Positions 41,568-60,014 of a DNA stretch of 64,000 nt are shown piece after piece. Position 1 is the stretch's first letter. The number at the start of each line of letters is the position of its first letter. The notes beneath the pieces are model-generated. The model searched no databases. It saw only the letters and a program-made list of their open reading frames with translations, and had not been told where the DNA came from. Source of the DNA: an uncultured Lachnospiraceae bacterium (GTDB lineage: Bacteria > Bacillota > Clostridia > Lachnospirales > Lachnospiraceae); contig CANQRR010000004.1 of assembly GCA_947626285.1 (NCBI GenBank), forward strand, positions 1 to 64,000. Direction: 5' to 3'. The position numbers and the translations under genes are program-made.

Positions 41568-43532
41568 TTGGAAAACTATACCAAGTATCAGTTGAAAGAG
41601 CATGACGAGCTGGCTTCCGTGTTGGCTGACAAAGACAAGCTGTTCGTCATCGCCTGTAACAAGTGCTTCAAAGAGTTCGAGACCACGGACGAGCCCGACT
41701 GCGAAGAGTTCGCGAAGATCGCTGCCGAGTGCGGCAAGACGATCACCGGTTCCGTAAAGCTCGACTTTTTGTGCAACAAGACCCAGACAGCGAAGAAGCT
41801 GCAGGACGCGATCCCGGAAGGCACGGAAAATGTGTTTGTGATCGCCTGCGGACTGGGCATCCAGACTGTCGCGGAGCTGATCGACAAGCCCGTGTACACC
41901 GCCACGAATTCGCTGAACTACACGGGACATCACGGCATGGCTCTCACGAAGAAGAGCTGCGATGCCTGCGCACAGTGCTACCTGAACGTGACCGGCGGCA
42001 TATGCCCGATCGTCGACTGCTCCAAGAGCCTCGTCAACGGCCAGTGCGGCGGCGCCAAGAACGGCAAGTGCGAGGTCGACAGCAATAAGGACTGCGCGTG
42101 GGAGAAGATCTACCAGAGACTCGCGAAACAGGGCCGTCTGAAGGAGTTCCTGAATCAGCCCGTGCAGCTGCGCGACTACTCAAAGACCAGCCACAAGTTC
42201 GTGGCCGACTACGTGAAGTCGATCCGTGAGAACCGTCTCGACGGCTACTACGGCGGCGTGCATCCGTCAGAGCGCAAGGAATACTCCGAGCACATCGCGC
42301 TTGAGCGCTTCCCGGAGCCCGAGACCGTCGTGATTCCGCTGTCCATGCATGCGGGCGCTCCGGCGACTCCTGTCGTCGAGGTTGGCGATGAGGTCAAGGT
42401 CGGCCAGAAGATCGGCGAGTCCGCCGGCTTCATCAGCAGCCCGATCCACTCCAGCGTCAGCGGCACCGTCGTCGCGATCGAGCCGCGCCTGCATCCGACC
42501 AGAGGCGATCAGATGCTGTCTGTCGTCATCAAGTCGGACGGCAAGAATACCCTGCACGAATTCGTGAAACCACACGGTGATATCGACAGCCTTAGCCCGG
42601 ACGAGATCATCGAGATCGTCCGCGAGAGCGGCATCGTCGGCATGGGCGGCGCGGGCTTCCCGACCTCCGTCAAGCTGAAACCGAACAAGCCGGTCGACAC
42701 GATCCTCTTAAACGGCTGCGAATGCGAACCGCTGCTGACGGCAGACCACAGAGTGCTGCTGGAGTTCTCGGACGATATCATCTATGGCCTGAAGGCGATC
42801 CTCAAGACCGTGGGCGCTGAGAAGGGTCTCATTGTGATCGAAGACAACAAACCCGACGCGATCGAGCTGATGCAGTCCAAGGTGGCTGACATCGACAACA
42901 TCGACGTCGTCGTGGCGAAGACCAAATACCCGCAGGGCGCTGAGAAGACGCTGATCAAGCGCGTGATGGGCAGGCAGGTGCCGCGCGGCGGACTTCCCGC
43001 GGATGTGGGCGTCGTCGTGAGCAACATCAGCACCACGAAGGCGATCGCAGACGCGATTCGTACCGGTATGCCGCTTGTGGAGCGCGTGGTCACGGTGACC
43101 GGCGAGCACATCGCGAAGCCAGGCAACTACATCGTGAAGATCGGCACGAACGTCCGTGAGCTCATCGAGCACTGCGGCGGCATCGTCGGCGACGACGTGA
43201 CCGTCAAGATGGGCGGACCGATGATGGGCTTTGTGCTGAACGATCTGGACGTCCCGATCCTGAAGGGCTCCAACGGCATCATCGCCATCGACGCCGACCA
43301 CACACAGACCGTCGAGTGCATCAAGTGTGGGCGCTGCGTGGACGTCTGTCCGATGGAGCTCTCACCGCTCTACTTCGCGAAGTACGCGGACGAGGAGAAC
43401 TGGCAGGCCATGAAGGACATGAACGTCATGGACTGCGTCGAGTGCAGATGTTGCGAGTACATCTGTTCTTCCAAGATCCCGCTGGTCTCCAAGATCAAAG
43501 CCGGAAAAAATGCAGTAAGGGGGATGAAGTGA
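41568..43532 (+). CDS. MetV-RnfC fusion protein (electron-input subunit for methylenetetrahydrofolate reductase)
   Basis: This two-part cytoplasmic iron-sulfur protein has about 654 residues. Residues ~1-210 are a MetV-type (MTHFR C-terminal, zinc-binding) domain with CNKCFKEF and the cysteine-rich block CDACAQCYLNVTGGICPIVDCSKSLVNGQCGG. From ~215 it is RnfC-like, starting HPSERKEYSEHIALERFPEPETVVIPLSMHAGAP, then the NADH/FMN-type core (GMGGAGFPTSVK, LLNGCECEPLLTADH). It ends with two 4Fe-4S motifs, CIKCGRCVDVCP and CVECRCCEYICS. The TTG at 41568 follows GGAAGGTGGG and lies downstream of the promoter; an ATG at 41532 would sit on the transcript start. It is followed after 1 bp by a separate MetV gene. 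It probably carries electrons from NADH or ferredoxin to MetF. Confidence 0.88.
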   Translation: MENYTKYQLKEHDELASVLADKDKLFVIACNKCFKEFETTDEPDCEEFAKIAAECGKTITGSVKLDFLCNKTQTAKKLQDAIPEGTENVFVIACGLGIQTVAELIDKPVYTATNSLNYTGHHGMALTKKSCDACAQCYLNVTGGICPIVDCSKSLVNGQCGGAKNGKCEVDSNKDCAWEKIYQRLAKQGRLKEFLNQPVQLRDYSKTSHKFVADYVKSIRENRLDGYYGGVHPSERKEYSEHIALERFPEPETVVIPLSMHAGAPATPVVEVGDEVKVGQKIGESAGFISSPIHSSVSGTVVAIEPRLHPTRGDQMLSVVIKSDGKNTLHEFVKPHGDIDSLSPDEIIEIVRESGIVGMGGAGFPTSVKLKPNKPVDTILLNGCECEPLLTADHRVLLEFSDDIIYGLKAILKTVGAEKGLIVIEDNKPDAIELMQSKVADIDNIDVVVAKTKYPQGAEKTLIKRVMGRQVPRGGLPADVGVVVSNISTTKAIADAIRTGMPLVERVVTVTGEHIAKPGNYIVKIGTNVRELIEHCGGIVGDDVTVKMGGPMMGFVLNDLDVPILKGSNGIIAIDADHTQTVECIKCGRCVDVCPMELSPLYFAKYADEENWQAMKDMNVMDCVECRCCEYICSSKIPLVSKIKAGKNAVRGMK

Positions 43533-43533
43533 T

Positions 43534-44154
43534 ATGTTGATTACCGAATTGAAATCCAAAGAGACGATCCTCTCACTGGCGGACGACAAGAAAGTCTTTC
43601 TCATCAACTGCCACGGCTGCAAGGAAACCCATTTTCCGGAAAAGGAAGCAGCGGAACTTCAGAAGGAATTAGCTGCTGACGGAAAAGTGACCGGAAGCAT
43701 CACCACCGATTACATATGCAACCCGGAGAACCTGAAGCTGCGCCTCGAGCATCACATGAGCGAGATCGAAGCGGCCGACGTGGTACTCGTCTTCTCCTGC
43801 GGCGTGGGCGTACAGACCGTTGCCGAGTATCTGGAGAGCAAGAAAGTCTGCGCGGCCTGCGACACCTACCGTCTGCCGGGCTTCCAGGGCGTGACGCCGA
43901 TTGAGCACGACTGCGGTCAGTGCGGCGAGTGTTACCTGAACCTGACCGGAGGCATCTGCCCGATCACGGCCTGCTCCAAGAGCCTGATCAACGGTCAGTG
44001 CGGCGGTTCCAAGAACGGCAAATGCGAGGTCGACAGCGAGATGGACTGCGGCTGGGAGCGCATCTACCGGAGGCTTGAGAAGATCGGGCGTCTGGACGTG
44101 CTGAAGTGCCCGACCCAGATCCGCAATTTCGCGACGGACGACGCTACAAAATGA
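43534..44154 (+). CDS. metV: Methylenetetrahydrofolate reductase C-terminal domain protein MetV
   Basis: This 206-residue protein of the MTHFR_C family has CHGCKETHFP near residue 27 and the block CGQCGECYLNLTGGICPITACSKSLINGQCGGSKNGKCEVDSEMDC, with many cysteines for zinc and iron-sulfur binding. It is closely similar to the N-terminal domain of the preceding gene, so the operon carries two MetV units. In acetogens MetV forms a complex with MetF and an RnfC-like subunit. The ATG is 1 bp after the upstream stop, preceded by AAGGGGGATG. Confidence 0.9.
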   Translation: MLITELKSKETILSLADDKKVFLINCHGCKETHFPEKEAAELQKELAADGKVTGSITTDYICNPENLKLRLEHHMSEIEAADVVLVFSCGVGVQTVAEYLESKKVCAACDTYRLPGFQGVTPIEHDCGQCGECYLNLTGGICPITACSKSLINGQCGGSKNGKCEVDSEMDCGWERIYRRLEKIGRLDVLKCPTQIRNFATDDATK

Positions 44155-44211
44155 AAATCTACCGATAACAGAATCATCAATTCAAAAAAATAGGATTAGG
44201 AGCATAGAAGA

Positions 44212-45090
44212 ATGAAAATTACTGAATTATTTGAACGCGGTGAATTTGTAGTATCTGCAGAAGTGGGGCCGCCGAAGGGATGTCACATCGAAGGGCTTCT
44301 CGAGGAAGCGAAAACGTATCTGAAGGGCGTCACGGCGGTGAACGTGACGGACAACCAGTCCTCCGTGATGCGCCTCGGATCTCTGGCGACGTGTAAGGCT
44401 CTGTTGGACGAGGGGCTGACCCCGATCTTCCAGCTCACCTGCCGCGACAGGAACCGCATCGCGCTGCAGTCCGATCTCTTAAGCGCGGCGATGCTCGGGA
44501 TCGAGAATCTCCTGCTACTGACAGGCGACCACACAAAAATGGGCGATCATCCGCAGGCGAAGCCGGTCTTCGACCTGGACTCCGTCTCCCTGATCCACAC
44601 GGTGAAGCTGCTTGAGTCCGGCGTGGACTTGGGCGGAAATGAGCTGGTCGGCGAGCCGCCGAAGTTCGCGAAGGGCGCGGTCGTCTCCCCGTGCAGCGAT
44701 TCCCTCGACGCGCAGCTCGCGAAGATGGAGCGCAAGGTGGCTGCGGGCGTGGACTACTTCCAGACCCAGGCCGTCTTCGAGCCGGAGAAGTTCATCAAGT
44801 TCATGGAGAAGGCGAAACAGTTCGGCAAGCCGGTGCAGCTGGGCGTCGTGATCCCGAAGTCCGCAGGCATGGCGAAGTACATGAACAACAACGTCGCCGG
44901 CATCCATGTCCCGGATGAGATGATCGAGGAACTCAAAGCCGACAAGGAAAAGACCAAGGCCGGCGTCACCGGCACCGAGATCACGGCGCGCATCATCAAA
45001 GAGTGCAAGCCGTACTGCCAGGGCGTCCACATCATGGCGCTCGGCTGGGAATCCAAGATCCCGGGTCTGCTTGAAATGGCTGGAATCTAA
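44212..45090 (+). CDS. metF: Methylenetetrahydrofolate reductase MetF
   Basis: This 292-residue TIM-barrel flavoprotein reduces 5,10-methylene-THF to 5-methyl-THF. Conserved features include SAEVGPPKG near the start, AVNVTDNQSSVMRLGSLATCKALLDEGL, HLTCRDRNR-like FQLTCRDRNRIALQSDLL with the folate-binding Asp, LLLLTGDHTKMGDHPQAKPVFDLDS and the DYFQTQAVFEPEKF strand. It lacks the long C-terminal regulatory domain of eukaryotic enzymes. AGGAG lies about ten bases before the ATG. With the fusion protein and MetV it makes a complete module of the methyl branch of one-carbon metabolism. Confidence 0.95.
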   Translation: MKITELFERGEFVVSAEVGPPKGCHIEGLLEEAKTYLKGVTAVNVTDNQSSVMRLGSLATCKALLDEGLTPIFQLTCRDRNRIALQSDLLSAAMLGIENLLLLTGDHTKMGDHPQAKPVFDLDSVSLIHTVKLLESGVDLGGNELVGEPPKFAKGAVVSPCSDSLDAQLAKMERKVAAGVDYFQTQAVFEPEKFIKFMEKAKQFGKPVQLGVVIPKSAGMAKYMNNNVAGIHVPDEMIEELKADKEKTKAGVTGTEITARIIKECKPYCQGVHIMALGWESKIPGLLEMAGI

Positions 45091-45347: not shown

Positions 45348-46577
45348 TTACTCGGCAGCTACAGCTTCCGTCTCCATCTCGCTCGTGTCCATCAGCGCCG
45401 CAAATACCGGGGTGAGGGCAGCGCCTATCACGTCGGTCCCCAGCGTGCTGAACGAATTGCCCAGCTCCTCGGCCGCCGCGTCTTCGTCCATGTCGCTCAG
45501 CATGATCGCGCTGTCCATATCCACGGAATCCATGGTGAAAGCCTCGCCCTCATGCGTGCCCTTAGCCGCGCTCAAGCTCACGCCAAACGGCGTCCCCGCA
45601 TTCACACCAGTGATAGCGACGTCCACTGCGTCTCCGCTCTCGCTAAAGCTCTTGTTCGCCGCCACATGCACTTCGCCGCTCTCCGACGTGCCGTCGTCAA
45701 ACTTCACATAGACGTCCGCCAGATTGTTCAGGCCGTCAGCCGTGCCCTTGGTGACGCTTCCGGATACCTGAAGCGCGTTGACTTCCCCAAGCAGCTGCTC
45801 GCTCAAGCCTGCCGGCTCGCCGTCCACATAGATCATATCCAGGATCTTGCAGAGCGTGTCAATGCCAAAGCTGAACTCAGTCTTGTTGTAAGTACCGTCG
45901 GCAATACTGATCTCCTCGCCGTTGATGCCGGTCTGTACGCCGCCCAGCTCGACGGTCTCCGGACCGGTGATGCACTCCTCGATGACAGCCGCGACGTCAC
46001 CCTCCACGGTAACCTCAGGCAGCGTCTCTTCCGCAGCAGCAGCCTCGGCCTCTGTCTCTACGACAGCCTCGGTCTCCGGCTCTGCCGGCAGCTCAACAGG
46101 TACATCATTCATCCCCTGCACGATGCCGTCCGCAACTGCCTTCGTGTCGATGCTCTGGAGGACGCCGATCAGCGACTGGATCCCCTCGTCCATATAACGC
46201 GCCATCACGACCGCCGGGTCGATCAGGTAATCCTTGGCGCCAAGGGTCGGGCTCTCCAGATGGAGCGCTCCGAGCGTGTCCGTGCCGGTGAAGCACACCA
46301 CGGCAGCTGTCTCGCCGTCCACGTCCAGATGCAGGCTGATCGCCTCCAGCTCGTCTTCCGTGGCGGTGACATCCACTTCCAGTTCCACACCCGTGAGGTC
46401 GATGACCTGTTCACCGCTTGTAAGGCGCAGGTTCGACAGTTTGATGCTTTCCGTCGTCGCGGCTGCGGCAGCCGCAGCTTCCTCCGCGAACGCGCAGGTG
46501 CAGCTTCCGAGCAGCATTGCCGCGCTCAGCACCGCTGCCATCAGCTTTTTCCCTAAGTTCCTCTTTCTTGTTTGCAT
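45348..46577 (-). CDS. Secreted protein of unknown function at the end of the RiPP operon
   Basis: This 409-residue protein has a signal peptide (KKLMAAVLSAAMLLGSCTCAFA) and an Ala-rich start. A beta-rich acidic domain follows (TSGEQVIDLTGVELEVDVTATEDELEAISLHLDVDGETAAVVCF) and then a Glu/Ala linker (residues ~170-190). A second region repeats the style with GMNDV, YVKFDDGTSESGEVHVAANKSF and EAFTMDSVDMDSAIML. The LGSC sequence could be a lipobox, though AFA before EEA is also a good signal peptidase I site. AAGGAG precedes the ATG, which is only 27 bp after the GNAT-like gene, so it is probably cotranscribed with the RiPP genes. I do not recognise the family. Confidence 0.85.
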   Translation of the reverse strand: MQTRKRNLGKKLMAAVLSAAMLLGSCTCAFAEEAAAAAAATTESIKLSNLRLTSGEQVIDLTGVELEVDVTATEDELEAISLHLDVDGETAAVVCFTGTDTLGALHLESPTLGAKDYLIDPAVVMARYMDEGIQSLIGVLQSIDTKAVADGIVQGMNDVPVELPAEPETEAVVETEAEAAAAEETLPEVTVEGDVAAVIEECITGPETVELGGVQTGINGEEISIADGTYNKTEFSFGIDTLCKILDMIYVDGEPAGLSEQLLGEVNALQVSGSVTKGTADGLNNLADVYVKFDDGTSESGEVHVAANKSFSESGDAVDVAITGVNAGTPFGVSLSAAKGTHEGEAFTMDSVDMDSAIMLSDMDEDAAAEELGNSFSTLGTDVIGAALTPVFAALMDTSEMETEAVAAE

Positions 46578-46604
46578 GTTCCCTTTCTCCTTTTCATGAA
46601 AAGT

Positions 46605-47525
46605 TTATTTGAAACGCACATGCGTCGTTTCCATAAATTTGATTTTGAGGACCTGTTCCATGAACAGCTCCTGTAACGCCTCGCCGAAATACCACCGGCT
46701 AAACTGTAGCATGTCTCTGTTGTCCGCACGCACGATGAACTCTATGTCCTCGTACCGCGCGGAAACGTAGTCGATCCACCGTCCCATGAGGCAGACTCCC
46801 GCCATCTTCGCCCTCCGGCTCGGGAAAGCGTACCAGCGCCTCACCTCCAGCGTCGCGGGATCCATAAGGCGGCAAATCACCCAGCCGCACAGGAGATCAC
46901 TCTCCTGCTCCTGCAAAAAGAAACTGGTGTCCTCGTCGAACTCCTTGACAAACGGCTGCAGGTCCTTCAGCTCGTCCCGGTCATCCGCTGAGCGGATCCG
47001 GTCCATGAGCCGGGCCTTCATTTCGGAAGTCAGCTCTGAGGCTCGCAGGATGCGATAGCCCTTCCTCGCCAGATATTCATCCGAATAGCGCTCCGCCCTG
47101 GTGCGAAAGCCCGGCAAATGCACCCGGAACCTGTGATAGGACGGCTCTGTGTGCGCCGTGGCTCCGGAAATCCCCTGCACAAGCCGCTCGATCGGATCCG
47201 CCCGGCCTGCTTTCACGGGATAGCGCCAGAAAAACAGCTTCGGATGATAACGGCGCTCCGCCTGCACAAGCAATGCGCCGATCAGCTCCCGAAGCAGCGC
47301 CGCGTCGCGCCATCCGGGAAGAACCAGCAGCATCAATATCTGAAATTCCGAATCCTCCGGAATGAACCAGCCGCGTATCACTCCGATCTCCTCTTCGTCC
47401 GACGACACGGACAAAAACAGATGCTCCAAAGAGCCCGCAGCATTTGCCGCCGGCTCTTTGGAACCAAGCTTTCTCAGAAGCCTGAGCTGTTCAGTAGGAT
47501 CGTCAATGCTCTGGTACCGGTACAT
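46605..47525 (-). CDS. GNAT-like protein of the RiPP cluster
   Basis: This 306-residue cytoplasmic protein looks like two GNAT-type halves. The first half has a strand-helix arrangement (IGVIRGWFIPEDSEFQILMLLVLPGWRDAALLRELIGALL). The second half has LLCGWVICRLMDPATLEVRRWYAFPSRRAKMAGVCLMGRWIDYV and ends ALQELFMEQVLKIKF. The classical Q/RxxGxG acetyl-CoA loop is not clear in either half. The start lies inside the last codons of the radical SAM/SPASM gene (23 bp overlap), which points to translational coupling and a shared role in peptide maturation. Acylation of the product is a possible role but is inferred from context. Confidence 0.72.
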   Translation of the reverse strand: MYRYQSIDDPTEQLRLLRKLGSKEPAANAAGSLEHLFLSVSSDEEEIGVIRGWFIPEDSEFQILMLLVLPGWRDAALLRELIGALLVQAERRYHPKLFFWRYPVKAGRADPIERLVQGISGATAHTEPSYHRFRVHLPGFRTRAERYSDEYLARKGYRILRASELTSEMKARLMDRIRSADDRDELKDLQPFVKEFDEDTSFFLQEQESDLLCGWVICRLMDPATLEVRRWYAFPSRRAKMAGVCLMGRWIDYVSARYEDIEFIVRADNRDMLQFSRWYFGEALQELFMEQVLKIKFMETTHVRFK

Positions 47526-48846
47526 CGCTCTGTTCCGCCTCTTTTTTTATCTTCGCCTCGTAGTGCAGCTCCAGCAGCTCCTCCAGATGCCCCTTGAAAT
47601 AAGAGCAGCAGCTTCCGATCTTGCCGTCGCGCTTGTGGTTCATGCGCACCTTGTGGCAGCCGCCGTCGCAGATGGGAAAGTAAAAGCACTCCCTGCACTC
47701 CTGCGAGTCCAGATAGGAACAGCCGGTCATACCCTCAGCGATCAGCCCCATGTTCCAGTCGTTGAACCGGTCGATATGGCCGACCACAAGGGACTCTATG
47801 CCCACGTCGTCCCAGCACTTGTACAGCTCGCCGTCCGGCCCCACCACATAAGCGTTGCGCTTCGTGAGCGTACAGCCGGCGTGCGCCCTTCCCGGAAAAA
47901 GCGACAGCGGGTCGATTCCGTATTTCTCGTGCGTCTCGGCGATGAACCGGCCCTTGTCCTCCGGGTCGAAGAAGCAGCTCACATCCGGATGGTCGTCCCC
48001 CTTCACGAAGCCCGGGTAGACCGCCACCTGCTTCTTTTTGTCCTCCGGACAGAGCGCCATGACCTGCCGGTGCACATCGATGAATTCGTCTTCATTTCTG
48101 GTATCCACATTCACACGGATGTGGATCTGCCCCTCGTAGCCGGACTTCAGAAGTCTTTCCAGATTCTGAAGGATGCGGTCGTAAGTAGGACCGCCGTTTT
48201 TCAGGTAACGCCGTTTATCGTGCGTCTCCTTCCTGCCGTCCAGTGTGATCTGGACCGCCCTGACATGCAGATCGTTCAGCTCGTCCGCGATCTCCCCGGT
48301 CAGCAGATAGCCGTTCGTTATCATGCTGGCGCTGTACTTCTTATCCATTTTTTCCACTTCCCGCGTGATGCGGCGAATGGTATTGATCGCGAGCAGCGGC
48401 TCGCCGCCGTACCACACAAGCCCGACGTTCTTAAGCCCCGTGTGGAGCCGGATGAACTCGATCAGCTTATCCGCCGTCTCGTCGGACATCGGGGCGCCGC
48501 TCCGGTTCCCCTCATAGCAGTAGGAACAATCGAAGTTGCAGTTCCGCGTGATCGCCACGGTCAGCATCAGCGTCTGGGTGGCGTAGGTCTCGGTCAGACG
48601 GTGCATCTTCAGGATATTGTACAGCGCGTCGTCCTGTCCGTCCTCCACAAGAAAGCCGTGGCTGCGCAGCAGGAAATAGAGCTGCGGCTGCCCGGAAAAG
48701 TCAAAGCCGTCCGCGTCCTTTTGAATCGCCTCCAGTACCGGAACCAGGTTCTCCTCTACCTGAAGGAAAGCATTGGACGCGGAGTTGTACAGCAGCCAGC
48801 CGTTCCGCCTGGAGCGGAACAGCCGGCTGTATCTGGACCAGCGCAT
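47503..48846 (-). CDS. Radical SAM/SPASM peptide maturase
   Basis: This 447-residue enzyme has an N-terminal PqqD-like peptide-binding region (about 1-90, RSRRNGWLLYNSASNAFLQV). The radical SAM triad is CNFDCSYC (Cys 103, 107, 110), followed by the GGEPLL loop. The C-terminal SPASM domain begins at GCTLTKRNAYVVGPDGELYKCWDD and continues through CRECFYFPICDGGCH to a late CC pair. Such enzymes form thioether, ether or carbon-carbon crosslinks in ribosomal peptides. The ATG is 2 bp after the stop of the first NHLP precursor, so that peptide is the natural substrate. The precise bond formed is unknown. Confidence 0.92.
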   Translation of the reverse strand: MRWSRYSRLFRSRRNGWLLYNSASNAFLQVEENLVPVLEAIQKDADGFDFSGQPQLYFLLRSHGFLVEDGQDDALYNILKMHRLTETYATQTLMLTVAITRNCNFDCSYCYEGNRSGAPMSDETADKLIEFIRLHTGLKNVGLVWYGGEPLLAINTIRRITREVEKMDKKYSASMITNGYLLTGEIADELNDLHVRAVQITLDGRKETHDKRRYLKNGGPTYDRILQNLERLLKSGYEGQIHIRVNVDTRNEDEFIDVHRQVMALCPEDKKKQVAVYPGFVKGDDHPDVSCFFDPEDKGRFIAETHEKYGIDPLSLFPGRAHAGCTLTKRNAYVVGPDGELYKCWDDVGIESLVVGHIDRFNDWNMGLIAEGMTGCSYLDSQECRECFYFPICDGGCHKVRMNHKRDGKIGSCCSYFKGHLEELLELHYEAKIKKEAEQSDVPVPEH

Positions 48847-48848
48847 GC

Positions 48849-49148
48849 TTACTTGTCGAGGCTGACGCCGGTGCCCTGCGCGGCGCAGGCATTGCCGCCG
48901 CAGGTGCCGCCTGCCACCTGGTCAAGCTCCTCCTCGCTGAGCGGCGCGCCGTTGGTGTAGACTGCGTCGATGCCGTCGCCCTTCTCGATCACCTGGATGG
49001 AGTAACCCTCCGGAACGCTAAGCCCCGTAAGCTCCTCTACGGTCTTGACCGGATCCTTGCAGAGTTTCTCGCGGAACGCCGGATCCTGTGCCGCCTTTTC
49101 CTTTATCTGCGCGTATACCTCGTTGATCTTTTCAGTTGTCCATGCCAT
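48849..49148 (-). CDS. NHLP-leader RiPP precursor 1
   Basis: This is a 99-residue precursor peptide. The leader (1-81) resembles the nitrile hydratase alpha subunit (DPAFREKLCKDPVKTVEEL, LSVPEGYSIQVIEKGDG) and ends LDQVAGG, the double-glycine site for the C39 peptidase exporter. The predicted core is TCGGNACAAQGTGVSLDK (82-99), with two cysteines. GAGGAGG lies upstream of the ATG. It is directly followed by the SPASM maturase. The core segment CGGNACAAQGT matches CGGEACAAAGS in precursor 2. The final product is probably a short crosslinked or D-amino-acid-containing peptide. Confidence 0.93.
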   Translation of the reverse strand: MAWTTEKINEVYAQIKEKAAQDPAFREKLCKDPVKTVEELTGLSVPEGYSIQVIEKGDGIDAVYTNGAPLSEEELDQVAGGTCGGNACAAQGTGVSLDK

Positions 49149-49191
49149 GTTTTTTTCCTCCTCTTTTCTTTTTTCATCATACTAAAACTGC

Positions 49192-49587
49192 TCAGACAAT
49201 ACTTCCCGCCGCGGCGCAGGCTTCCCCGCCGCAAACGAATTCTGCCATACAGCCCTTTGCTGCGCATGCTCCCACATCGGGACCCACGCCCACGGCTGCC
49301 GCGCAGGCAGAGACGATCAGGAGCATGCTCAAACCTCCCGCCGCCGTCTCGGACTCCTCATCCGTCAGCTCTCTCCCGATCATATCGGGGAGAACCATGG
49401 TCGCCGTGTAGGCCGGATCGTTCTCGATCACCTTGAGCTTAAAGCCGTCCGGCAGCTTCTCGCCCGCGAACGCTTCGATCGCCTTCGTCGGGTCGGCCAG
49501 AAGCTCCTTGCGGAACGCCTCGTCGGTCATCGCTTTTTTCTGCACGCCGACGTACAGTTCCTCCAGTTTCTGTTGTGTCCATTCCAT
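49192..49587 (-). CDS. NHLP-leader RiPP precursor 2
   Basis: This is a 131-residue precursor. The leader (1-85) follows the same nitrile-hydratase-like plan (DEAFRKELLADPTKAIEAF, KLPDGFKLKVIENDP) and ends TAAGG. The core of 46 residues (86-131) starts hydrophobic (LSMLLIVSACAAAVGVG) and contains five cysteines, with the GACAAKGC and VCGGEACAAAGS segments near the end. AAGGAGG precedes the ATG. It lies 44 bp before precursor 1 and 77 bp after the C-methyltransferase-type gene. A long Ala/Val/Gly-rich core is what PoyD-type epimerases and C-methyltransferases act on in proteusins. Confidence 0.93.
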   Translation of the reverse strand: MEWTQQKLEELYVGVQKKAMTDEAFRKELLADPTKAIEAFAGEKLPDGFKLKVIENDPAYTATMVLPDMIGRELTDEESETAAGGLSMLLIVSACAAAVGVGPDVGACAAKGCMAEFVCGGEACAAAGSIV

Positions 49588-49663
49588 ACGGAATACCTCC
49601 TTTCCTACATATGGTATTTATTTGATACATAATGTGTATCCCTTTTTATAGGTACCGACCGGT

Positions 49664-51475
49664 TCAGAGAACCTTCTGCCTTTCCGGAACGGCCAGGAAC
49701 AGCACCTCGTCCCCGATCCGCAGGATCAGCTTTTTCCGGATCAGCTCTTCCAGGACTCCCTCCGCCCTGTCTCTCTCCTGCTTCCCGCAGGTTTCCAGCA
49801 GCCGGTCTATCCTGACCGCCTGGTCCGCCGCGAGACAGACGTCCTTCTCAAGGCCGTCAAGCACATAGGTCTCCTGCAGGGCGCAGGGCCGTCCGTCGTA
49901 GATCGCGAGAAGACCGTACTGCAGTCTGTAGCTGAGGGTGCAGCCTTTTCGGCTGGCACGCTTCCATTCCAGAACCAGCTTTAAGAGCTCGTCAAAATAC
50001 GGCGTGCTCTGCGGCGGATCCGCCAGAAAGAATTCGTGGAAGCGGCTGTCCCCCGCAAGCTCCTCTCCAAAGAGATAAGGGTAATACCCATCGGGCTTCA
50101 GCGTCACCCCATAGTCCGCCGCCCGCTGCGTAAAGATGCTCTGCCGCTGATAACCGTGCGGGTTCAGCTGCGGCGCGGGCAGATGGAACAACAGCGGATA
50201 AAATTCCATGTCGTGATAATACCATTCCGCCTTCTCCCCGGGGAACGAATACAGCAGGTTCCATGCGAGGTAGATCCCCGCCTCCTTTGCGTTTTTCAAA
50301 AATTCCACGTGTTTGATCCCGCGGTTCCCCTTGTGCATCAGTTGGAGCAGATGATCGTTCAGGCTCTCGATCCCCGGCTGGAAGGATGTGAAGCCGGCCC
50401 TTCTCAGCCTGTGGACGTCTTCTCTCGTCATGTTTGTCTTGACTTCGGAAAAGAGAGAATATCCCTTTCCTGTCAGCAGCTCCGGCAGCTCTCTGACGTG
50501 CTCCCGCGCCAGGATGCAGTCTGTCAGGAAAAAGCTGCGCACCTGATATCTCTCCGCCAGATACGCCAGTTCATCAGCGAAACGCCGGCTGTCCTTCCTG
50601 CGGTAGCACAGCAGCTCAGGATCGGGATGGAGCCCGCAGAAGCAGCACCTGTGCTTCTCACCCCACCAGCAGCCCCGGGAGGCCTCGACCGGCAGGTCGA
50701 CACTCACCCTCTCTGCAAGTCCCGATGCGGAGAGCTCCGCAAAGTAATCGTCAAAATCCGGATAAGGAACCGCGTCCAGGTCCCGGACGGCGTGTACGGC
50801 GGGGGTCCCACCCCTGTGCAGCACCTCCGGGAAGCGCCTATGCAGCTCTTCGGTCCTGCCCTCCGCGATCAGATCCAGCGCGTCGCAGAAATTGTCGTCC
50901 GATTCCCCCACAAACGCGTAATCCACCTGCCCCATGCGGTCCACAAGCGCCTGCCCCCTCTCCGGGCCGACCGAACTGCCGCCGATCACGGTGACGGTCT
51001 TTGGCGCCTTTTCCTTGATCCGCTTCAGAAGCGCAAGGTCGGCGTTGCACTGGGCAAAGGTATAGGTGCAGCCGACGACGTCCGGATCTTCCGCGAGGAT
51101 TTCATCGGACAGCGCGTCCAGGAACCCCGGGACCAGCGGATCGCACTTTTGGACCAGCGAAAAAAAATCCGCCGTGATCCGTTCGTATCCGGCGCCCCGG
51201 AAATACTCCATGGTCTCCTGCCTGGACGGCACATGGCCGTAGCCGGCGTAGGGCGAAAATACTGCCTCGATCAGCTGCATATACATAGCCGCGATCTCAT
51301 CCAGCCGGAAATAAGCCTCCGCCCCGATCAGGCGCGCGAAACGAAGGTTCGCGTAGACGACGCGCGCATCTATGCCGCGCTTTTCCGCGGCCGCTTTCAG
51401 CAGGCTCAAGCCCATCACAGGGGCTTTCGCGGTGCAGAAAGGCATTGTCACCAGGCAGATCTTTTTCACGCCCAT
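49664..51475 (-). CDS. Cobalamin-binding radical SAM RiPP C-methyltransferase
   Basis: This 603-residue enzyme resembles the RiPP maturation radical SAM protein 1 family. An N-terminal B12-binding-type domain (about 1-200, with DPDVVGCTYTFAQCN and VIGGSSVGPERG) precedes a radical SAM domain. The cluster motif is the distinctive SRGCWWGEKHRCCFCGL: Cys 269, 277 and 280 are spaced CX7CX2C, not CX3CX2C. The rest (FFLTDCIL, FQPGIESL, WNLLYSFPGE) fits the family, which methylates unactivated carbons of core residues. Its start overlaps the epimerase gene by 10 bp. It probably methylates side chains of precursor 2. Confidence 0.9.
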   Translation of the reverse strand: MGVKKICLVTMPFCTAKAPVMGLSLLKAAAEKRGIDARVVYANLRFARLIGAEAYFRLDEIAAMYMQLIEAVFSPYAGYGHVPSRQETMEYFRGAGYERITADFFSLVQKCDPLVPGFLDALSDEILAEDPDVVGCTYTFAQCNADLALLKRIKEKAPKTVTVIGGSSVGPERGQALVDRMGQVDYAFVGESDDNFCDALDLIAEGRTEELHRRFPEVLHRGGTPAVHAVRDLDAVPYPDFDDYFAELSASGLAERVSVDLPVEASRGCWWGEKHRCCFCGLHPDPELLCYRRKDSRRFADELAYLAERYQVRSFFLTDCILAREHVRELPELLTGKGYSLFSEVKTNMTREDVHRLRRAGFTSFQPGIESLNDHLLQLMHKGNRGIKHVEFLKNAKEAGIYLAWNLLYSFPGEKAEWYYHDMEFYPLLFHLPAPQLNPHGYQRQSIFTQRAADYGVTLKPDGYYPYLFGEELAGDSRFHEFFLADPPQSTPYFDELLKLVLEWKRASRKGCTLSYRLQYGLLAIYDGRPCALQETYVLDGLEKDVCLAADQAVRIDRLLETCGKQERDRAEGVLEELIRKKLILRIGDEVLFLAVPERQKVL

Positions 51476-52818
51476 CGCACATAACCTCTTTCATACAGAT
51501 ATTGGAACTTCTGCCAGAGCAGAAGCGCGCGGCGATCCTGCGCGGAAAGCGTCCGGCAGACCTCCGCAAATGTGGAGGCCGCTTCCCGGACGATCCGGAC
51601 TGCCCGCAGGAAGTCCTCGTCCTTCGCAAGACTGCAGCCCACGCCGTCTCCCCAGAATTCCACGCAGTCTTCTTTTTCTGCGATCCTGCACACCGCGTTG
51701 AAATGCAGGACCCTGTCCTCGGGCAGCTCTGCGCGCGCCCAGGTCCCGAACAGGTGTTTCATGCCTGTCTCGAACTCATCCGCGTCCGCAAAGCCAAGCG
51801 TCTCCCGGATGCAGTATCCGTTCGGATACTCTCCCGACGGCAGTTCAGGCTCGATGAATTCCATGGTCTTTTTCACCAGGTTCACCCGCAGCCCGGCGGT
51901 ACAGCTGATCCCATAGCGGATGAACTTCTCTCTGCCCTTCTCGCCCATGCGTTCACACAGGCGGATGGCTCTCCCGGAAAGGGAATATTTCGTCAGCGAC
52001 TCCGGATTATTCGGCAGAAGCTCAATATCCTTCAGCTCATCCGGACGGTAGATCTCCTGTATCTTCTCCAGCTGGCGCAGACTGCGTATGCTGAAGCGCA
52101 TCGCGGCCTTCCCCATGGCGTCCGGCCCCAGCTCTTTCATAAAGGCACGGATGCGCTCCGGATCCCGCTCCGCCACAGCCGTCGTCGTCTGCGGAACCAG
52201 CCCCGTGACCGCGCGGAAATCGTAGACGAATTTCTCGTAGTCCGGATTGTCGAACGGCTCCGTCGCCATATAGCAGCTGCTCGTCCCCGCGACGCGTCCC
52301 AGATAGCGGACGCTGCGCTTGAGGATCTCTCTCCACAGTCCAGCGTTCTCCGGCGTGTAGGCAAAATTTTCTCTCCAGCGCGGCGCGTCCACGCCGCAGA
52401 ACGGACACTGTACACTGCATCCGTCGCCCAGCTCAAACAGGAGCGGGAAATAATGGATCGCCCCGTGCTTCCGGATCTGACGGCTCTCCATGCGGCACCT
52501 CCGGTGTACCTGCCGGCTCCAGAGGCAGATCTCGCGCTCGGCGAACGCGTCGTCCGCGATCCTGATCTCGTATTCCTCCACGATCTCCCGCTGGTACGCC
52601 CGGTACTCCTGCAGATAGCGGTTCTGCTCCTCCGGAGTGCGCATCTCCCTCGCCTGTCCGCACAGCATATCGCACGCTTCCAGCGCCATCTCCGCGTCAA
52701 GCGGGATGCCGCGCTCCTGCAGGGTCTCTTGCGGCCGCGCCTGCAGCCGCTCGCGGAAGGAGGGATCCGCCGCGTAATTCTCCATCAGGTATTTTATATA
52801 TGGAACGTCTGCATACAT
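51466..52818 (-). CDS. PoyD-type radical SAM RiPP amino acid epimerase
   Basis: This 450-residue enzyme has the radical SAM triad in FELGDGCSVQCPFCG (Cys 134, 138, 141). It resembles the radical SAM family RiPP maturation epimerase (PoyD/OspD) that turns L- into D-residues in proteusin cores. The first ~50 residues (AADPSFRERLQARPQETLQERGIP) look like a Nif11/NHLP leader helix pair, which may be a built-in leader mimic. Later cysteines (GISCTAGLR, GYCIRE, VCRIAEKEDC) are candidates for the H-atom donor or auxiliary cluster. AGGAG lies about nine bases before the ATG. It overlaps the C-methyltransferase-type gene, so the two are coupled. Confidence 0.86.
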   Translation of the reverse strand: MYADVPYIKYLMENYAADPSFRERLQARPQETLQERGIPLDAEMALEACDMLCGQAREMRTPEEQNRYLQEYRAYQREIVEEYEIRIADDAFAEREICLWSRQVHRRCRMESRQIRKHGAIHYFPLLFELGDGCSVQCPFCGVDAPRWRENFAYTPENAGLWREILKRSVRYLGRVAGTSSCYMATEPFDNPDYEKFVYDFRAVTGLVPQTTTAVAERDPERIRAFMKELGPDAMGKAAMRFSIRSLRQLEKIQEIYRPDELKDIELLPNNPESLTKYSLSGRAIRLCERMGEKGREKFIRYGISCTAGLRVNLVKKTMEFIEPELPSGEYPNGYCIRETLGFADADEFETGMKHLFGTWARAELPEDRVLHFNAVCRIAEKEDCVEFWGDGVGCSLAKDEDFLRAVRIVREAASTFAEVCRTLSAQDRRALLLWQKFQYLYERGYVRWA

Positions 52819-52878
52819 CTCTTAGCTCCTATCTCCGGCAAAAATCTTCACAACTCTTTCCGCGAATGCTGCTCCTGT

Positions 52879-53220
52879 TTATCTTTCCTTGCTGCCAGTC
52901 AGCGCATCCTGCAGATAGGCCGCGGTCGCGCCGAGTAAAATGCAGCCAGCGTAGAGCATTCCGTCAAAGTGCAGGGCCGAAATAAGGAAATAGCAGGCAA
53001 AGACGATGACTGCAAAGACGGCGCACCAGATGGCATTGCTGAACTTCTTCTTTTCCTTGTTCCCCTGCAGCGCGTCCTGCAGATAAGCCACGGTCGCGCC
53101 GATCAAAATGCAGCCGGCGTAGACAAACCCGTCCATATGTAGGGCCGGGACAAAGAAATAGCAGACGTAAACAATGACTGCGAAAATAGCTGTCCAAATT
53201 GCATTACCGAATTTTTTCAT
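52879..53220 (-). CDS. Internally duplicated four-helix membrane protein, possible immunity or regulatory protein
   Basis: This 113-residue protein consists of two nearly identical 56-residue halves. Each half runs KKFxNAIWxAxFAVIVxxCYFxxxALHxDGxxYAGCILxGATxAYLQDALxGxKE and has two membrane helices, giving four in total. The DNA of the halves is also clearly similar, so the duplication is recent. AAGGAG lies seven bases before the ATG. It lies between the sigma factor and the epimerase in the same operon. Small hydrophobic proteins in RiPP clusters are often immunity proteins, but it could also be a membrane anti-sigma partner. The function is unknown. Confidence 0.85.
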   Translation of the reverse strand: MKKFGNAIWTAIFAVIVYVCYFFVPALHMDGFVYAGCILIGATVAYLQDALQGNKEKKKFSNAIWCAVFAVIVFACYFLISALHFDGMLYAGCILLGATAAYLQDALTGSKER

Positions 53221-53238
53221 GATATTTTTCTCCTTTTG

Positions 53239-53766
53239 CTATAAATGATCTGTTTCACAAACGCTTAAGTATCTCCGCATCTTCTTCAGCGCGTTGTGCT
53301 GAAGGACGCGGACGTTGGCGTAGCTGACGCCGATGCGGTCCGCGGTCTCCTGCGCGGAGAGCCCGTGATAAAAGCGCAGAATCACGATGTTCCGCTCCCG
53401 CTCAGGAAGCCGCTCCAGCGCGTCGGCAAGCGTCTCGAGCAGCTCCTGTGTCAGCAGCCGGTCCTCCACGTCCGCCAGGAGCGAACGCTCCTCCGGCTGA
53501 TCCAGCGTCTCCATCTCGGCCGGCACCGGCTCGCGGCTCCTCCTGCGATAGTAATCCGTCACCGCGTTGCGCGTGATGACATAGAGCCATGTCCCAGGCG
53601 CGCTGCGCGCCGGATCATAGCCGTCCAGCGCCGAGATCGCGTTCAGAAAGACCTGCTGCTTCAGATCCGCCCTGTCGTGCTCATTCGACACATGAGAACT
53701 GATGTACCGCTCCACTTTCTCGTGGTAATCCTGATATAGTTTCTCGGGCGTGATGGCGGTATTCAT
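53239..53766 (-). CDS. Sigma-70 family (ECF-like) RNA polymerase sigma factor
   Basis: This 175-residue sigma factor has region 2 (DLKQQVFLNAISALDGYDPARSAPGTWLYVITRNAVTDYYRR) and region 4 (LPERERNIVILRFYHGLSAQETADRIGVSYANVRVLQHNALKKMRRYL), with only a linker between them, so it is of the ECF-like small type. Its ATG overlaps the stop of the small upstream gene by 4 bp (ATGA). It lies inside the RiPP operon and probably directs transcription of the cluster from promoters near the direct repeats at 54.1 kb. No recognisable anti-sigma factor is adjacent. Confidence 0.92.
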   Translation of the reverse strand: MNTAITPEKLYQDYHEKVERYISSHVSNEHDRADLKQQVFLNAISALDGYDPARSAPGTWLYVITRNAVTDYYRRRSREPVPAEMETLDQPEERSLLADVEDRLLTQELLETLADALERLPERERNIVILRFYHGLSAQETADRIGVSYANVRVLQHNALKKMRRYLSVCETDHL

Positions 53767-53960
53767 AGCTTATCCTCGTCTTTCGTCCGGAGCCGCAGCG
53801 CATCCGCGTCCCCGGCGGCGTTCAGCTCCAGCTCGCTGTCGTCCAGTCCCACTCCGGCCCTCGCTTCCTCGGCATCGCGGATCAGCCTGCCCAGCCGCCT
53901 GTTTCCGGAAAAGCGCTGGAAATCAAACAGTACCCTCAATGTCCTTTCTATCCCGTCCAT
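53763..53960 (-). CDS. Small acidic protein coupled to the sigma factor
   Basis: This is a 65-residue protein (MDGIERTLRVLFDFQRFSGN to KDEDKL) with a helical basic first half and an acidic second half containing DDSELELNAAGD. GGAGG lies eight bases before the ATG, and its stop overlaps the sigma start. No known domain is recognised. Position and coupling suggest a regulator or chaperone of the sigma factor. It is supported as a gene by the ribosome site and the overlap and not by homology. Confidence 0.7.
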   Translation of the reverse strand: MDGIERTLRVLFDFQRFSGNRRLGRLIRDAEEARAGVGLDDSELELNAAGDADALRLRTKDEDKL

Positions 53961-54255: not shown

Positions 54256-54579
54256 TTATCGCTTGTTTACTTCGCAGTACATCCACCCTTTTTTGTGCGT
54301 ATGCGAGTAACCGCAGAACGTGCACCAGTTCAAGGCGTTGGTGCACTTGTTGCAGCCGTAAAACGGCGAAACGATCAGATAGCCGTCGTCGGTATACTCG
54401 CCGCCGCCAGCGACCGCACCCAGCTCCCCGTCTGAGAGCTCTCCCGCCGCATGCGCCGCGTCATAAAGATTCTTCGCCTCTTCCGCGGTGATCTTCTGTC
54501 CCCGGGTCTGAAAGAATTCCGCGACCTCCTCCGCAGACTTTGCCGTCCTCATTTTCTCCATGATCTCTTTCTGATTCAT
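54256..54579 (-). CDS. Nif11-type leader RiPP precursor with five-Cys core
   Basis: This 107-residue precursor has a Nif11-like leader (MEKMRTAKSAEEVAEFFQTRG, TAEEAKNLYDAAHAAGELSDGELGAVAGG). It ends with a double glycine at about 58-59. The core of about 48 residues contains YGCNKCTNALNWCTFCGY, two CxxC pairs six residues apart (Cys 76, 79, 86, 89), and a fifth Cys at 102. AAGGAGG precedes the ATG. It lies between its own terminator and the ABC exporter genes, not next to the maturases. The core pattern looks like a zinc ribbon or a cysteine-crosslinked peptide; no dedicated modifying enzyme is adjacent. Confidence 0.88.
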   Translation of the reverse strand: MNQKEIMEKMRTAKSAEEVAEFFQTRGQKITAEEAKNLYDAAHAAGELSDGELGAVAGGGEYTDDGYLIVSPFYGCNKCTNALNWCTFCGYSHTHKKGWMYCEVNKR

Positions 54580-54679: not shown

Positions 54680-56890
54680 TTACGCTGTCGTCTGAGTCGC
54701 TTCGTCCGGATCGTCCAGGCGCTGACGCGCCACCAGATCCGCGAACTTTCCGTTCTTCGCGATCAGCTCCTCGTATGTGCCGTCCTCGACGATCTTCCCC
54801 TTCTCGAGGTAGACGATGCGGTCGCAATGCTTGATCGTGGAAAGGCGGTGCGCGATGACGATCCTCGTGCACTTCAGCTTATCGAGAGACTCGGACACCT
54901 TCTTCTGCGTGAGATTGTCGAGCGCGCTCGTCGCCTCGTCAAACATCAGGATCCGCGGCTTCGGCGCGATGGCCCGCGCGATCATCAGCCGCTGGCGCTG
55001 TCCGCCGGATACACCTCCGCTGCCCTCGGAGATCATCGTGTTCATCCCCATCGGCATTCTGCGGATATCATCCGCGATGCCCGCAAGCTCCGCCGCCTCC
55101 CACGCTTCGTCGAGCGTCAGCCACGGCGCAGAGATCGTGATATTAGAAAAGATGTCTCCCTGGAACAGCCCGCCGGTCTGCATCACAGTGCCGATCCTGC
55201 GGCGCAGTGACTTCAAGTCGATGCCGTTAATATCCTTGCCGTCGTAGTAGACCGCGCCCTTCTGCGGCGTCTCAAAGCCAAGCATGATGCGCATGAGCGT
55301 AGACTTGCCGCAGCCTGTCGCGCCGACGATCGCCACGTACTGGCCGGGACGAATCTTCAGGGAGAGATCGTCCACCACGTTCGGCATGTGGTCGTTGTAG
55401 CGGAACGAAACATTGTTCAGCTCGATGCCGCCGGAGAGCCGCGTAATCACCTGCTTGCCCTCGGACACTTCGGGTATGGCGTCCATGATCGGCTTCGCCA
55501 TGTCGAGGATCGGCTTGATGTTCGCCGCGCTGAGCGCGAGTCCTGTAAGGGACAAAAACGCCCCGCTCACCATGCCGTACGCCGCGTTGAACGCGTAGTA
55601 ATCCGCCACGGCGACATTGCTCACGATCGCCATGTAGTACATGACAAAGGTACCCGCCAGCGTGATCAGCGTGGTGACCACAGCGTTGTACCGGATGATC
55701 GCGGGCGGATTGTAAAGCACCTTCGCCTGCTTCGCATATAGATTTCCCCAGCGGGCGAACGCGCGCTTCTCCGCCCCGGAGAGCTTGATCTTCTGCACGC
55801 CTGTGATCAGCGCGTAGCTCATACCGCTGACCTTGGCGCCTAGCTCCATCTGCCTGCGCGACACCTTGATCTGCGTCAGCGCGGTGACCACGGTGACGAT
55901 CAGCGTCGCCAGAATGATCAGCAGCGCGGGCGCCACCAGCGCGGGCGCATAGGCAAAGATCTGCGTGATGTAGATCAGGGAAAACAGAGAGGTGAGCCCC
56001 GTCGTGAATACGGCCTCCACCAGCATGGAGCACAGCGCGTTCATGTTCTGCGTCCGCGTGAAAAGCTCGCCCGAGCTGTAGTCTTTGAAGAACGCGGCAG
56101 GGAGCGACATGACGCGCGCCATCGTCGCGGCCTCCACGGTGATGTTCATTTTCGTCTGGATCCGCGCCATGAAAAGGTTCTTCACCGCCTCAAGCATCAG
56201 CCTGGAAACCGTCACACAGACCATAAATACCCCGATGGACGCAAGCAGCGCCAGATCCCTGTCCTCCACGACCAGTCCGAACAGCAGCTGGTTCAGCTTC
56301 GGGCTGAGCAAGCCTACAAGGGTGACCGCAAGGGTGGCGCCCGCCGCCAGCACGTAGTCGGCGGGCGCGAGGATCCCGGCGATGTACCGCAGGACGTCGG
56401 CGAAGCTGATCTTCTTGAGCGGGAACGGCTTGTAGAAGGCGATCGCCTCATCCTTGAAAAGCTCCTCGTTCTTCCGTGAGACCTTCACGGTCTTTCCCGT
56501 CTCCGCGTCAAAGAAAGTATATCCGCTCAGGGCCCCGGGAATGAGTGCCACGATGGAGCCGTCCGACCTGCGCACGCCGAGCATCGCCCCGATGGCGTCC
56601 TTGTACCAGCCCTTCTCCAGGACGACCGTCCTGCGCATGATACCGTAGGGACGCATGAGGAACTCCAGCTGTTCGTTTAAGTCCGTGATGCTATCCGGCA
56701 CTTCCTGCGATCTCACATGGTAAAATTTGAGGATCGCGTCGATCGCGTCCTTCGCGCGGCTCCTGTCGTCCGCGAACGCCGCGGATACGCGCGCGCCTGT
56801 GACGGCGTCCGAGATCCCGAGGAACGCTTCCTCGAAGGTGTTCTGATCATATTTTTTTCTCTCTTTTATCTGTTCACTAAACCAACCCAT
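54680..56890 (-). CDS. NHLP bacteriocin export ABC transporter permease/ATPase (no peptidase domain)
   Basis: This exporter half-molecule has about 736 residues. An N-terminal ~250-residue extra domain (IKERKKYDQNTFEEAFLGISDAVTG) precedes a six-helix membrane domain and an ABC domain. The ABC domain has Walker A GATGCGKSTLMRIM, the signature GVSGGQRQRLMIARAI, Walker B ILMFDEATSALDN and the switch His in VIAHRLSTI. It is the NHLM-type ATP-binding partner of the C39-bearing exporter encoded just upstream, with which it probably forms a heterodimer. The ATG at 56890 (preceded by AGGGGTG) is preferred over a GTG two codons earlier. Confidence 0.9.
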   Translation of the reverse strand: MGWFSEQIKERKKYDQNTFEEAFLGISDAVTGARVSAAFADDRSRAKDAIDAILKFYHVRSQEVPDSITDLNEQLEFLMRPYGIMRRTVVLEKGWYKDAIGAMLGVRRSDGSIVALIPGALSGYTFFDAETGKTVKVSRKNEELFKDEAIAFYKPFPLKKISFADVLRYIAGILAPADYVLAAGATLAVTLVGLLSPKLNQLLFGLVVEDRDLALLASIGVFMVCVTVSRLMLEAVKNLFMARIQTKMNITVEAATMARVMSLPAAFFKDYSSGELFTRTQNMNALCSMLVEAVFTTGLTSLFSLIYITQIFAYAPALVAPALLIILATLIVTVVTALTQIKVSRRQMELGAKVSGMSYALITGVQKIKLSGAEKRAFARWGNLYAKQAKVLYNPPAIIRYNAVVTTLITLAGTFVMYYMAIVSNVAVADYYAFNAAYGMVSGAFLSLTGLALSAANIKPILDMAKPIMDAIPEVSEGKQVITRLSGGIELNNVSFRYNDHMPNVVDDLSLKIRPGQYVAIVGATGCGKSTLMRIMLGFETPQKGAVYYDGKDINGIDLKSLRRRIGTVMQTGGLFQGDIFSNITISAPWLTLDEAWEAAELAGIADDIRRMPMGMNTMISEGSGGVSGGQRQRLMIARAIAPKPRILMFDEATSALDNLTQKKVSESLDKLKCTRIVIAHRLSTIKHCDRIVYLEKGKIVEDGTYEELIAKNGKFADLVARQRLDDPDEATQTTA

Positions 56891-56900
56891 GACCACACCC

Positions 56901-60001: not shown

Positions 60002-60014
60002 CTGAATCCCTCCT

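Follow-up and report, generated by a model that had tools for sequence, protein, structure and literature searches.

Gene content of the locus

We analyzed a 64,000-nucleotide (nt) stretch of DNA from an uncultured Lachnospiraceae bacterium (assembly GCA_947626285.1, contig CANQRR010000004.1, positions 1 to 64,000; hereafter the window), which encodes a putative proteusin operon, that is, a cluster for a ribosomally synthesized and post-translationally modified peptide (RiPP) with an NHLP leader. Nine closely packed genes occupy positions 45348-53766 of the minus strand. Upstream, the series extends on this strand over a Nif11-like peptide and the NHLM export genes as far as about 59581. As drawn, the first gene of the operon encodes an accessory sigma factor of the extracytoplasmic function (ECF) type (53239-53766; 175 amino acids [aa]; TIGR02937, 120 bits, cut-off 42.9), followed by a membrane protein of 113 aa (52879-53220) in which direct inspection of the translation reveals one segment in two copies. 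The open reading frames (ORFs) of a PoyD-type radical S-adenosylmethionine (SAM) epimerase (51466-52818; 450 aa; TIGR04517, 340.2 bits, cut-off 325) and of a radical SAM C-methyltransferase with a B12-binding region (49664-51475; 603 aa; TIGR03975, 481.3 bits, cut-off 281.85) overlap by 10 nt. Two precursors with NHLP leaders come next, precursor A (49192-49587; 131 aa; TIGR03793, 58.9 bits, cut-off 50.9) and precursor B (48849-49148; 99 aa), which at 49.2 bits falls slightly below the same cut-off. Precursor B ends 2 nt ahead of a SPASM radical SAM maturase (47503-48846; 447 aa), whose nearest named family is CefB (NF038107, 214.2 bits, cut-off 600). Its ORF overlaps by 23 nt with that of a GNAT-like protein, probably of two domains (46605-47525; 306 aa), a possible acyltransferase judging from the Acetyltransf_1 matches of its homologs. 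The final gene encodes an accessory secreted or lipoprotein-like protein (45348-46577; 409 aa) with a signal-like N-terminus by direct reading, which is also found in the related loci L015, L016, and L020. Neither this protein nor the 113-aa membrane protein matches a curated or Pfam family above cut-off.

A sequence-only reading of the window had named the sigma factor, the duplicated membrane protein, the PoyD-type enzyme, the methyltransferase, the two NHLP precursors, the SPASM enzyme, and the GNAT-like protein, and all of them lie where it placed them, on the minus strand and tightly packed. The CX3CX2C motif that it reported for the PoyD-type enzyme and the CX7CX2C and CWWG motifs of the methyltransferase are confirmed by the alignments described below, and both enzymes match their families above cut-off. 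We additionally find NHLM exporters, the Nif11-like peptide, a third precursor, and a regular spacing of the core cysteines. Seven genes compared with those of L015, L016, and L020 give dN/dS values of 0.12-0.46 in 21 comparisons. Given these values and the recurrence of the cluster in other metagenome-assembled genomes (MAGs; L015 and L016), the cluster goes beyond a chance assembly of genes.

Conserved motifs of the enzymes

An alignment restricted to full-length PoyD sequences, two of them from locus L014, contains the motif C134-X3-C138-X2-C141 in 33 of 33 members. One further cysteine, C306, is invariant in the same 33 and, when two more sequences are added, in 35 of 35. According to the accessible text of a review, a single strictly conserved cysteine (Cys372 in PoyD) has been proposed as the hydrogen donor (PMC8326336). 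Residues 15-44 of the window PoyD show a weak NHLP-like match (NF038399, 21.9 bits, cut-off 40). In the methyltransferase, the motif C269WWG...C277-X2-C280 is conserved in 17 of 17 sequences, and the match to the B12-binding domain PF02310 (E = 1.2e-7, 32.0 bits) is marginally below the gathering threshold of 32.1.

The SPASM enzyme carries C103-X3-C107-X2-C110 and eight more cysteines, so that eleven are invariant in 33 of 33 sequences. Three of these belong to the radical cluster and seven presumably fit the usual SPASM pattern. The remaining one, C291, lies outside the usual SPASM set. Of the NCBIfam models, 83 matched the enzyme, and none of the 25 shown is above its cut-off, CefB being the best. 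The nearest solved chain is CteB (5wgg; E = 1.6e-19). The GNAT-like protein of the window itself has no Pfam match, and 11 of 19 aligned members of its family match Acetyltransf_1 at E values up to 0.1 (best 3.5e-13).

Recurrence of the gene set

To obtain relatives, a single scan with the SPASM pair A1, which consists of two short peptide patterns, was run over 84,980 species genomes, and the best 80 of 100 confirmed loci were used. The window belongs to a SPASM clade with 34 other loci (L013, from genome G104; L015-L046; L051) at best-segment identities of 45-95%. The MAG labels of this clade include Lachnospiraceae, other Clostridia, Treponema, Lactobacillales, Defluviitaleaceae, and others, and several are of rumen or rabbit origin (the word Lapin). 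The counts that follow are not independent, because several loci are near-duplicates (L015-L017 and the window; L018 and L019; L024 and L025), and they are lower bounds, because some contigs are short.

Based on hidden Markov model (HMM) searches, PoyD is present in 32 of the 34 related loci (33 of 35 with the window). An NHLP precursor is likewise present in 32 (33 of 35), and the two loci without one, L023 and L028, are contigs of less than 3.4 kb. The methyltransferase is found in 16 of the 34, and PoyD and methyltransferase together in 17 of 35 loci when the window is counted. Thus, the genome search for the same gene set that the sequence-only reading had suggested finds the three-enzyme set again in 16 related loci. 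A GNAT gene occurs in 18 of the 34. The sigma factor, which had been taken for a built-in part of the system, is accessory: it is present in 6 of the 34 relatives, and a sigma-like gene also occurs in L137, a locus without this SPASM enzyme. With 7 of 35 loci in all, we rejected it as a defining part. The 113-aa membrane protein was rejected as a conserved part, since it has no match in 82 loci at E = 1e-5.

The SPASM and PoyD trees run in parallel. Across 30 loci including the window, their distances correlate with r = 0.87, and the best of 9999 permutations reaches 0.32; shared host ancestry can add to this correlation. Neither PoyD nor NHLP was found in the other 47 SPASM loci, which are more distant and many of which lie on short contigs. 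In genome samples that each include the window genome, PoyD exceeds its cut-off in 3 of 397 genomes at the family level, 1 of 391 at the class level, and 3 of 398 at the phylum level. Five distinct genomes carry it; the window genome and G104 have it together with the SPASM clade, and in a third, G831, the contig measures only 3.7 kb. In G152, a member of the same genus within the family sample, no PoyD was found. The window genome itself (3.73 Mb in 147 contigs) encodes a single PoyD.

Clustering of the neighboring genes of 34 loci yields no other widely common gene. The largest neighbor group is a protein of about 295 aa in five loci (L013:10295-11194, L015, L016, L027, and L043).

Cysteine spacing in the precursor cores

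The most unusual part of the system is the cysteine pattern of the cores, which the sequence-only reading did not describe. The core of precursor A comprises a hydrophobic segment, SMLLIVSACAAAVGVG, and five cysteines at spacings of 13, 5, 6, and 5, with A, K, E, E, and A at the third position after each cysteine (+3). A core of this kind is also present in L013. Precursor B has a short core, TCGGNACAAQGTGVSLDK, which ends in lysine and has N and Q at +3 of its two cysteines. In total, 68 cores were cut, of which 44 are non-redundant; precursor B of L020 and the L036 precursor keep some leader residues. Among the 353 successive cysteine pairs of the 44 cores, the spacing is 5 in 204, 6 in 68, and 3 or less in one. 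In 1000 shuffles, a spacing of 5 occurs at most 41 times and spacings of 3 or less at least 97 times. The spacing-5 unit reads C-[G/A]-[A/G]-X-[A/V/G], in which X is D in 72, N in 37, A in 34, K in 15, E in 13, Q in 10, and another residue in 23 of the 204 units.

Where the linker is longer, the polar residue remains with the cysteine before it. For 69 cysteines whose next cysteine lies at +6, D, N, E, or Q occupies the +3 position in 62% and the +4 position in 9% of cases (background 14%). Since the polar residue stays at +3 in these units, it belongs to the preceding cysteine, and a pairing with the following cysteine was rejected by the same test.

Of the 68, we scanned a selection of 30 precursors. 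Each has a match to the NHLP leader, which is expected because the leader served to detect them. Twelve of them match CefA (NF038108) at E = 0.01. The L032 precursor does so above the cut-off (38.2 bits, cut-off 30), and precursor A of the window is below it at 14.0 bits. At L129, a locus close to CefB (573.7 bits, cut-off 600), inspection by eye reveals two peptides with Cys-every-fifth cores and without an NHLP leader, and there is no PoyD match in 19.9 kb. Given the CefA matches and the absence of an NHLP leader at this CefB-type locus, the family studied here puts a core like that of the Cys-every-fifth peptides on a proteusin leader. Among C-X4-C-rich ORFs near the 47 distant SPASM loci, inspection by eye finds no clear Cys-every-fifth family; other cysteine-rich GG peptides were seen near L069, L072, L077, and L080.

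Two classes of core can be distinguished. A-type cores start with a hydrophobic segment, S..LIVSACAAAVGVG, which is present in 30 of 30 related loci that have both PoyD and a precursor, the pattern having been derived from these same cores. It is absent from the PoyD-less loci L043 and L045, and this distribution makes the segment the best candidate for the PoyD substrate. B-type cores are short, and most have a C-terminal lysine. With giant cores defined as those of 60 or more residues, 18 of 21 short-core loci (counting the window) and none of 12 giant-core loci have a GNAT gene. A lysine stands within the final three residues of 35 of 47 cores from GNAT loci versus 3 of 21 elsewhere. In the SPASM tree, along which GNAT and giant cores split, the giant-core loci fall on a single branch, so the link between GNAT and short cores may reflect one evolutionary event. 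In selidamides, GNAT enzymes acylate lysine or ornithine of NHLP-type precursors, as described in the available portion of PMC9505594; by analogy, acylation of the lysine in the short precursors is plausible.

The window genome encodes three precursors of this type. The third, preC (contig positions 72261-72659, that is, L005:8762-9160; plus strand), lies about 23 kb away and shares 68% identity with precursor A in residues 1-88. Its core is unrelated to that of A and is without CX2-polar repeats, and no recognized maturase lies beside it in the stretch read. It may be a relic or may be processed in trans.

Giant cores in related loci

Eleven non-redundant cores of relatives have 97-374 residues and 12-35 cysteines, mostly in runs of spacings 5, 5, 6. 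In the pooled giant cores, 144 cysteine pairs are 16 residues apart, versus 71 (standard deviation 7, maximum 95) in 2000 shuffles of the spacing order; at 32 residues there are 118 versus 39 (maximum 66), and at 48 residues 92 versus 25 (maximum 44). Taken singly, five of the eleven cores (L022, L030, L040, L025, and L032) rise above every one of the 1000 shuffles made of each, and L021, L046, and L036 exceed the shuffle mean but not the maximum. The period is weak in L034 and L041, and L031 has steps of 15 and no 16-residue period. Blocks of 5-5-6 occur 44 times, in 10 of the 11 cores. A period of 16 residues built from three units suggests a three-sided solenoid. In an AlphaFold2 model of the L032 precursor, the predicted local distance difference test (pLDDT) score is 84-96 per block in the first 50 residues, with a well-folded leader, and about 31-56 per ten-residue block for the core, where two-residue strands recur every 16 residues from residue 183 to residue 237; this modeled periodicity is no more than a hint of a solenoid. 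The giant precursors of L021, L022, and L046 have a long acidic tail rich in glycine, serine, and aspartate after the cysteine repeats.

A proposed maturation pathway

From the gene families, their motifs and co-occurrence, the SPASM and PoyD distances, and the phasing of cysteines and polar residues, all of which can be read in the sequences, we infer epimerization, methylation, and cross-linking of these precursors and the residues that would be hit. Our preferred hypothesis, to which we assign a probability of roughly 0.55, is that the locus encodes a proteusin with CX2-polar cores, in which the SPASM enzyme forms thioethers from cysteine to the +3 residue and PoyD and the methyltransferase act on the hydrophobic segment. 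The NHLP leader would bring precursors A and B to the three radical SAM enzymes. Core cysteines would then be linked by the SPASM enzyme to the side chain at +3, as in ranthipeptides, and the hydrophobic segment of precursor A would acquire D-residues by the action of PoyD and C-methyl groups by that of the B12 enzyme. The GNAT-like protein may acylate the near-terminal lysine of the short precursors or may act in self-protection. Finally, NHLM subunit 1 would cleave after GG, and subunits 1 and 2 would export a product that is probably antibacterial or a signal. The thioether reading is supported by the nearest solved relative of the SPASM enzyme, CteB, which is a thioether enzyme. The accessible text on PapB describes thioethers between cysteine and Asp or Glu in CX3D motifs, acceptance of CXnD with n = 0-6, and tolerance of D-residues (PMC9413430).

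Several observations weigh against this hypothesis. The SPASM enzyme falls well short of the cut-off for every family shown, and its reaction therefore cannot be read from homology; in addition, CteB has no cysteine at the position of the invariant C291. The +3 residue is not D, N, E, or Q in 72 of the 204 spacing-5 units (34 Ala, 15 Lys), and it is one of the four in precursor A for only two of five cysteines. Precursor B offers little for PoyD to act on. Moreover, the enzymes do not always travel together: the methyltransferase is absent from 18 of the 34 relatives, some of them on short contigs, L043 and L045 have the SPASM enzyme and an NHLP precursor without PoyD, and PoyD occurs without a SPASM enzyme of this clade in G241 and G1075, of which 14.3 and 18 kb were read.

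The exceptions at +3 would also fit the same cluster with a different SPASM chemistry, in which the enzyme makes sulfur-to-alpha-carbon (sactionine) links, or carries out another cysteine reaction, and the polar +3 residue serves only structure or recognition. The sactisynthase SkfB indeed matches the SPASM enzyme (E = 1.1e-6), although this match is far poorer than that of CteB, and the way in which the polar residue tracks its preceding cysteine when the linker length changes fits an acceptor. We consider such a chemistry unlikely, if worth keeping in view.

More improbable still is a chiefly structural role, in which the cores form a repeat solenoid, their cysteines stay free or bind metal, and the radical enzymes alter only a few sites. 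A solenoid would have a super-repeat like the 16-residue one of the pooled giant cores, and the short strands modeled in part of the L032 core agree with it. However, the pLDDT of that core is low, and no pentapeptide-repeat family, which we accordingly rejected, is among the Pfam matches of the 30 precursors at E = 0.01. A solenoid alone would need no SPASM enzyme either, but the presence of that enzyme in these loci proves nothing, since the search started from it.

Excision of tyramine by the SPASM enzyme in a plain spliceotide-like pathway is hardly credible: Tyr-Gly does occur in the cores of a few relatives such as L046, but cores A and B of the window have no tyrosine, and the window SPASM enzyme reaches 32.4 bits with TIGR04103, which we take to be the PlpX model, versus a cut-off of 725, on which ground we rejected a spliceotide identity.

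The thioether hypothesis can be carried one step further, to a family of thioether-stapled peptide solenoids. The giant cores would have 16 residues per turn (5+5+6) on three sides, one cysteine stapled to its +3 residue per side, up to about ten turns, and a hydrophobic segment of D-amino acids as an anchor, and precursors A and B of the window would be a minimal, acyl-tagged two-peptide form. We offer this as a speculation that is rather doubtful in its entirety.

Surrounding genes and other PoyD loci

Upstream of the sigma factor, on the minus strand, lies the Nif11-like leader peptide (54256-54579; 107 aa; TIGR03798, 22.5 bits, below the cut-off of 32.3), possibly a further export substrate. 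It sits between the exporter and the sigma factor, and its tail is rich in cysteine and aromatic residues. It is followed on the same strand by subunit 2 of the NHLM export ATP-binding cassette (ABC) transporter (54680-56896; TIGR03797, 716.2 bits, cut-off 709.4), subunit 1 with peptidase, permease, and ATPase regions (56901-59084; TIGR03796, 945.9 bits, cut-off 853.3), a short NHLM secretion-type protein with an HlyD-like N-terminus (59093-59581; TIGR03794, 35.5 bits over residues 18-64, below the cut-off of 156.2), and an RsbW-like anti-sigma protein (59594-60049; NF003144, 43.7 bits, below the cut-off of 145). Neighbors of the RsbW-like gene (L005:551-3101) encode an anti-sigma antagonist (71.4 bits, cut-off 53.45) and a SiaA-like phosphatase (80 bits, cut-off 700). 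Together with the RsbW-like protein, they form a possible partner-switching regulatory module near the exporter that runs past the window.

Next to the cluster, on the plus strand at 41532-45090, are three genes, the first with an extra N-terminal part and the second small and related to the first; we take them to be RnfC-like, a related small protein, and methylenetetrahydrofolate-reductase-like. At 4889-17609, several paralogous genes, presumably glycosyltransferase-like, lie in DNA of low GC content (about 0.39-0.46 vs. 0.55-0.60 at 32-64 kb).

Two PoyD loci lie outside the SPASM clade. L014 (G241) has a tandem PoyD pair, NHLM-type transporters, and no match to this SPASM clade; its NHLP-like precursor of 207 aa has a mostly hydrophobic core (V/A/G) that recalls the polytheonamide type. 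L137 (G1075) has PoyD, a C-methyltransferase, a sigma-like gene (102 bits), weakly Nif11-like peptides, and NHLM-type exporters, with no SPASM match.

Relation to known systems and significance

The window resembles proteusins in general in its NHLP leaders ending in GG and in having both NHLM ABC subunits above cut-off, and it resembles the polytheonamide type (PoyA/PoyD/PoyB/PoyC) in combining such a leader with a PoyD-family epimerase and a TIGR03975 methyltransferase above cut-off. It differs from the latter in its additional SPASM enzyme, its cysteine-rich period-five cores, and its occurrence in gut-type bacteria. With CefA/CefB it shares the Cys-every-fifth core, and its SPASM enzyme scores higher with CefB than with any other family, although enzyme and precursor A both score far below the respective cut-offs. 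As in the ranthipeptides (CteB, PapB), a SPASM radical enzyme is paired with a cysteine-rich substrate and a CXnD-like motif; in contrast to them, the window has an NHLP leader and PoyD, and its CX2-polar motif has one residue fewer than the native CX3D that the available text gives for PapB (PMC9413430). Selidamides, as portrayed in the accessible part of PMC9505594, also join an NHLP precursor with a GNAT enzyme; here acylation is a prediction, the GNAT is divergent, and no lanthionine synthetase was noted among the operon genes.

The combination had been called unusual. The presence of an epimerase, a methyltransferase, and a SPASM enzyme in one proteusin operon is supported, but PoyD and SPASM on an NHLP leader have a precedent, since the accessible text on spliceotides (PMC11002830) describes clusters in which PoyD-like and SPASM enzymes (PlpD and PlpX, with PlpY) are paired with NHLP/Nif11 precursors. 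Thus, the gene set is a variant rather than wholly new, and the window differs from spliceotides in its SPASM family and its tyrosine-free cores. Where its text was available, a 2014 survey of anaerobes reports NHLP/Nif11 clusters with several radical SAM proteins (PMC4289311), and a rumen survey counts two proteusin clusters (PMC13289728). In a search that covered neither bioRxiv as such nor most subscription papers, the accessible parts of the literature on proteusin, PoyD, ranthipeptide, SPASM, NHLP, and rumen gave no description of this gene set, and no paper contained the term Cys-every-fifth.

The locus joins two kinds of system, the D-amino-acid proteusins of the PoyD type and the Cys-every-fifth SPASM substrates. 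A substrate can likely be assigned to a hitherto unnamed clade of SPASM enzymes from bacteria of the rumen, the rabbit, and other gut sources, in which a recurrent enzyme set (PoyD and SPASM, with or without methyltransferase and GNAT) is accompanied by candidate substrate rules, namely the CX2-polar unit, the hydrophobic A-type segment, and the terminal lysine, which are testable in Escherichia coli enzyme by enzyme. If the giant cores with their 16-residue period are cross-linked, they would be large, very regular modified peptides and could offer an enzymatic route to stapled repeat proteins. Should the stapled solenoid prove true, the family would make a protein-sized RiPP whose fold is locked by radical enzymes.

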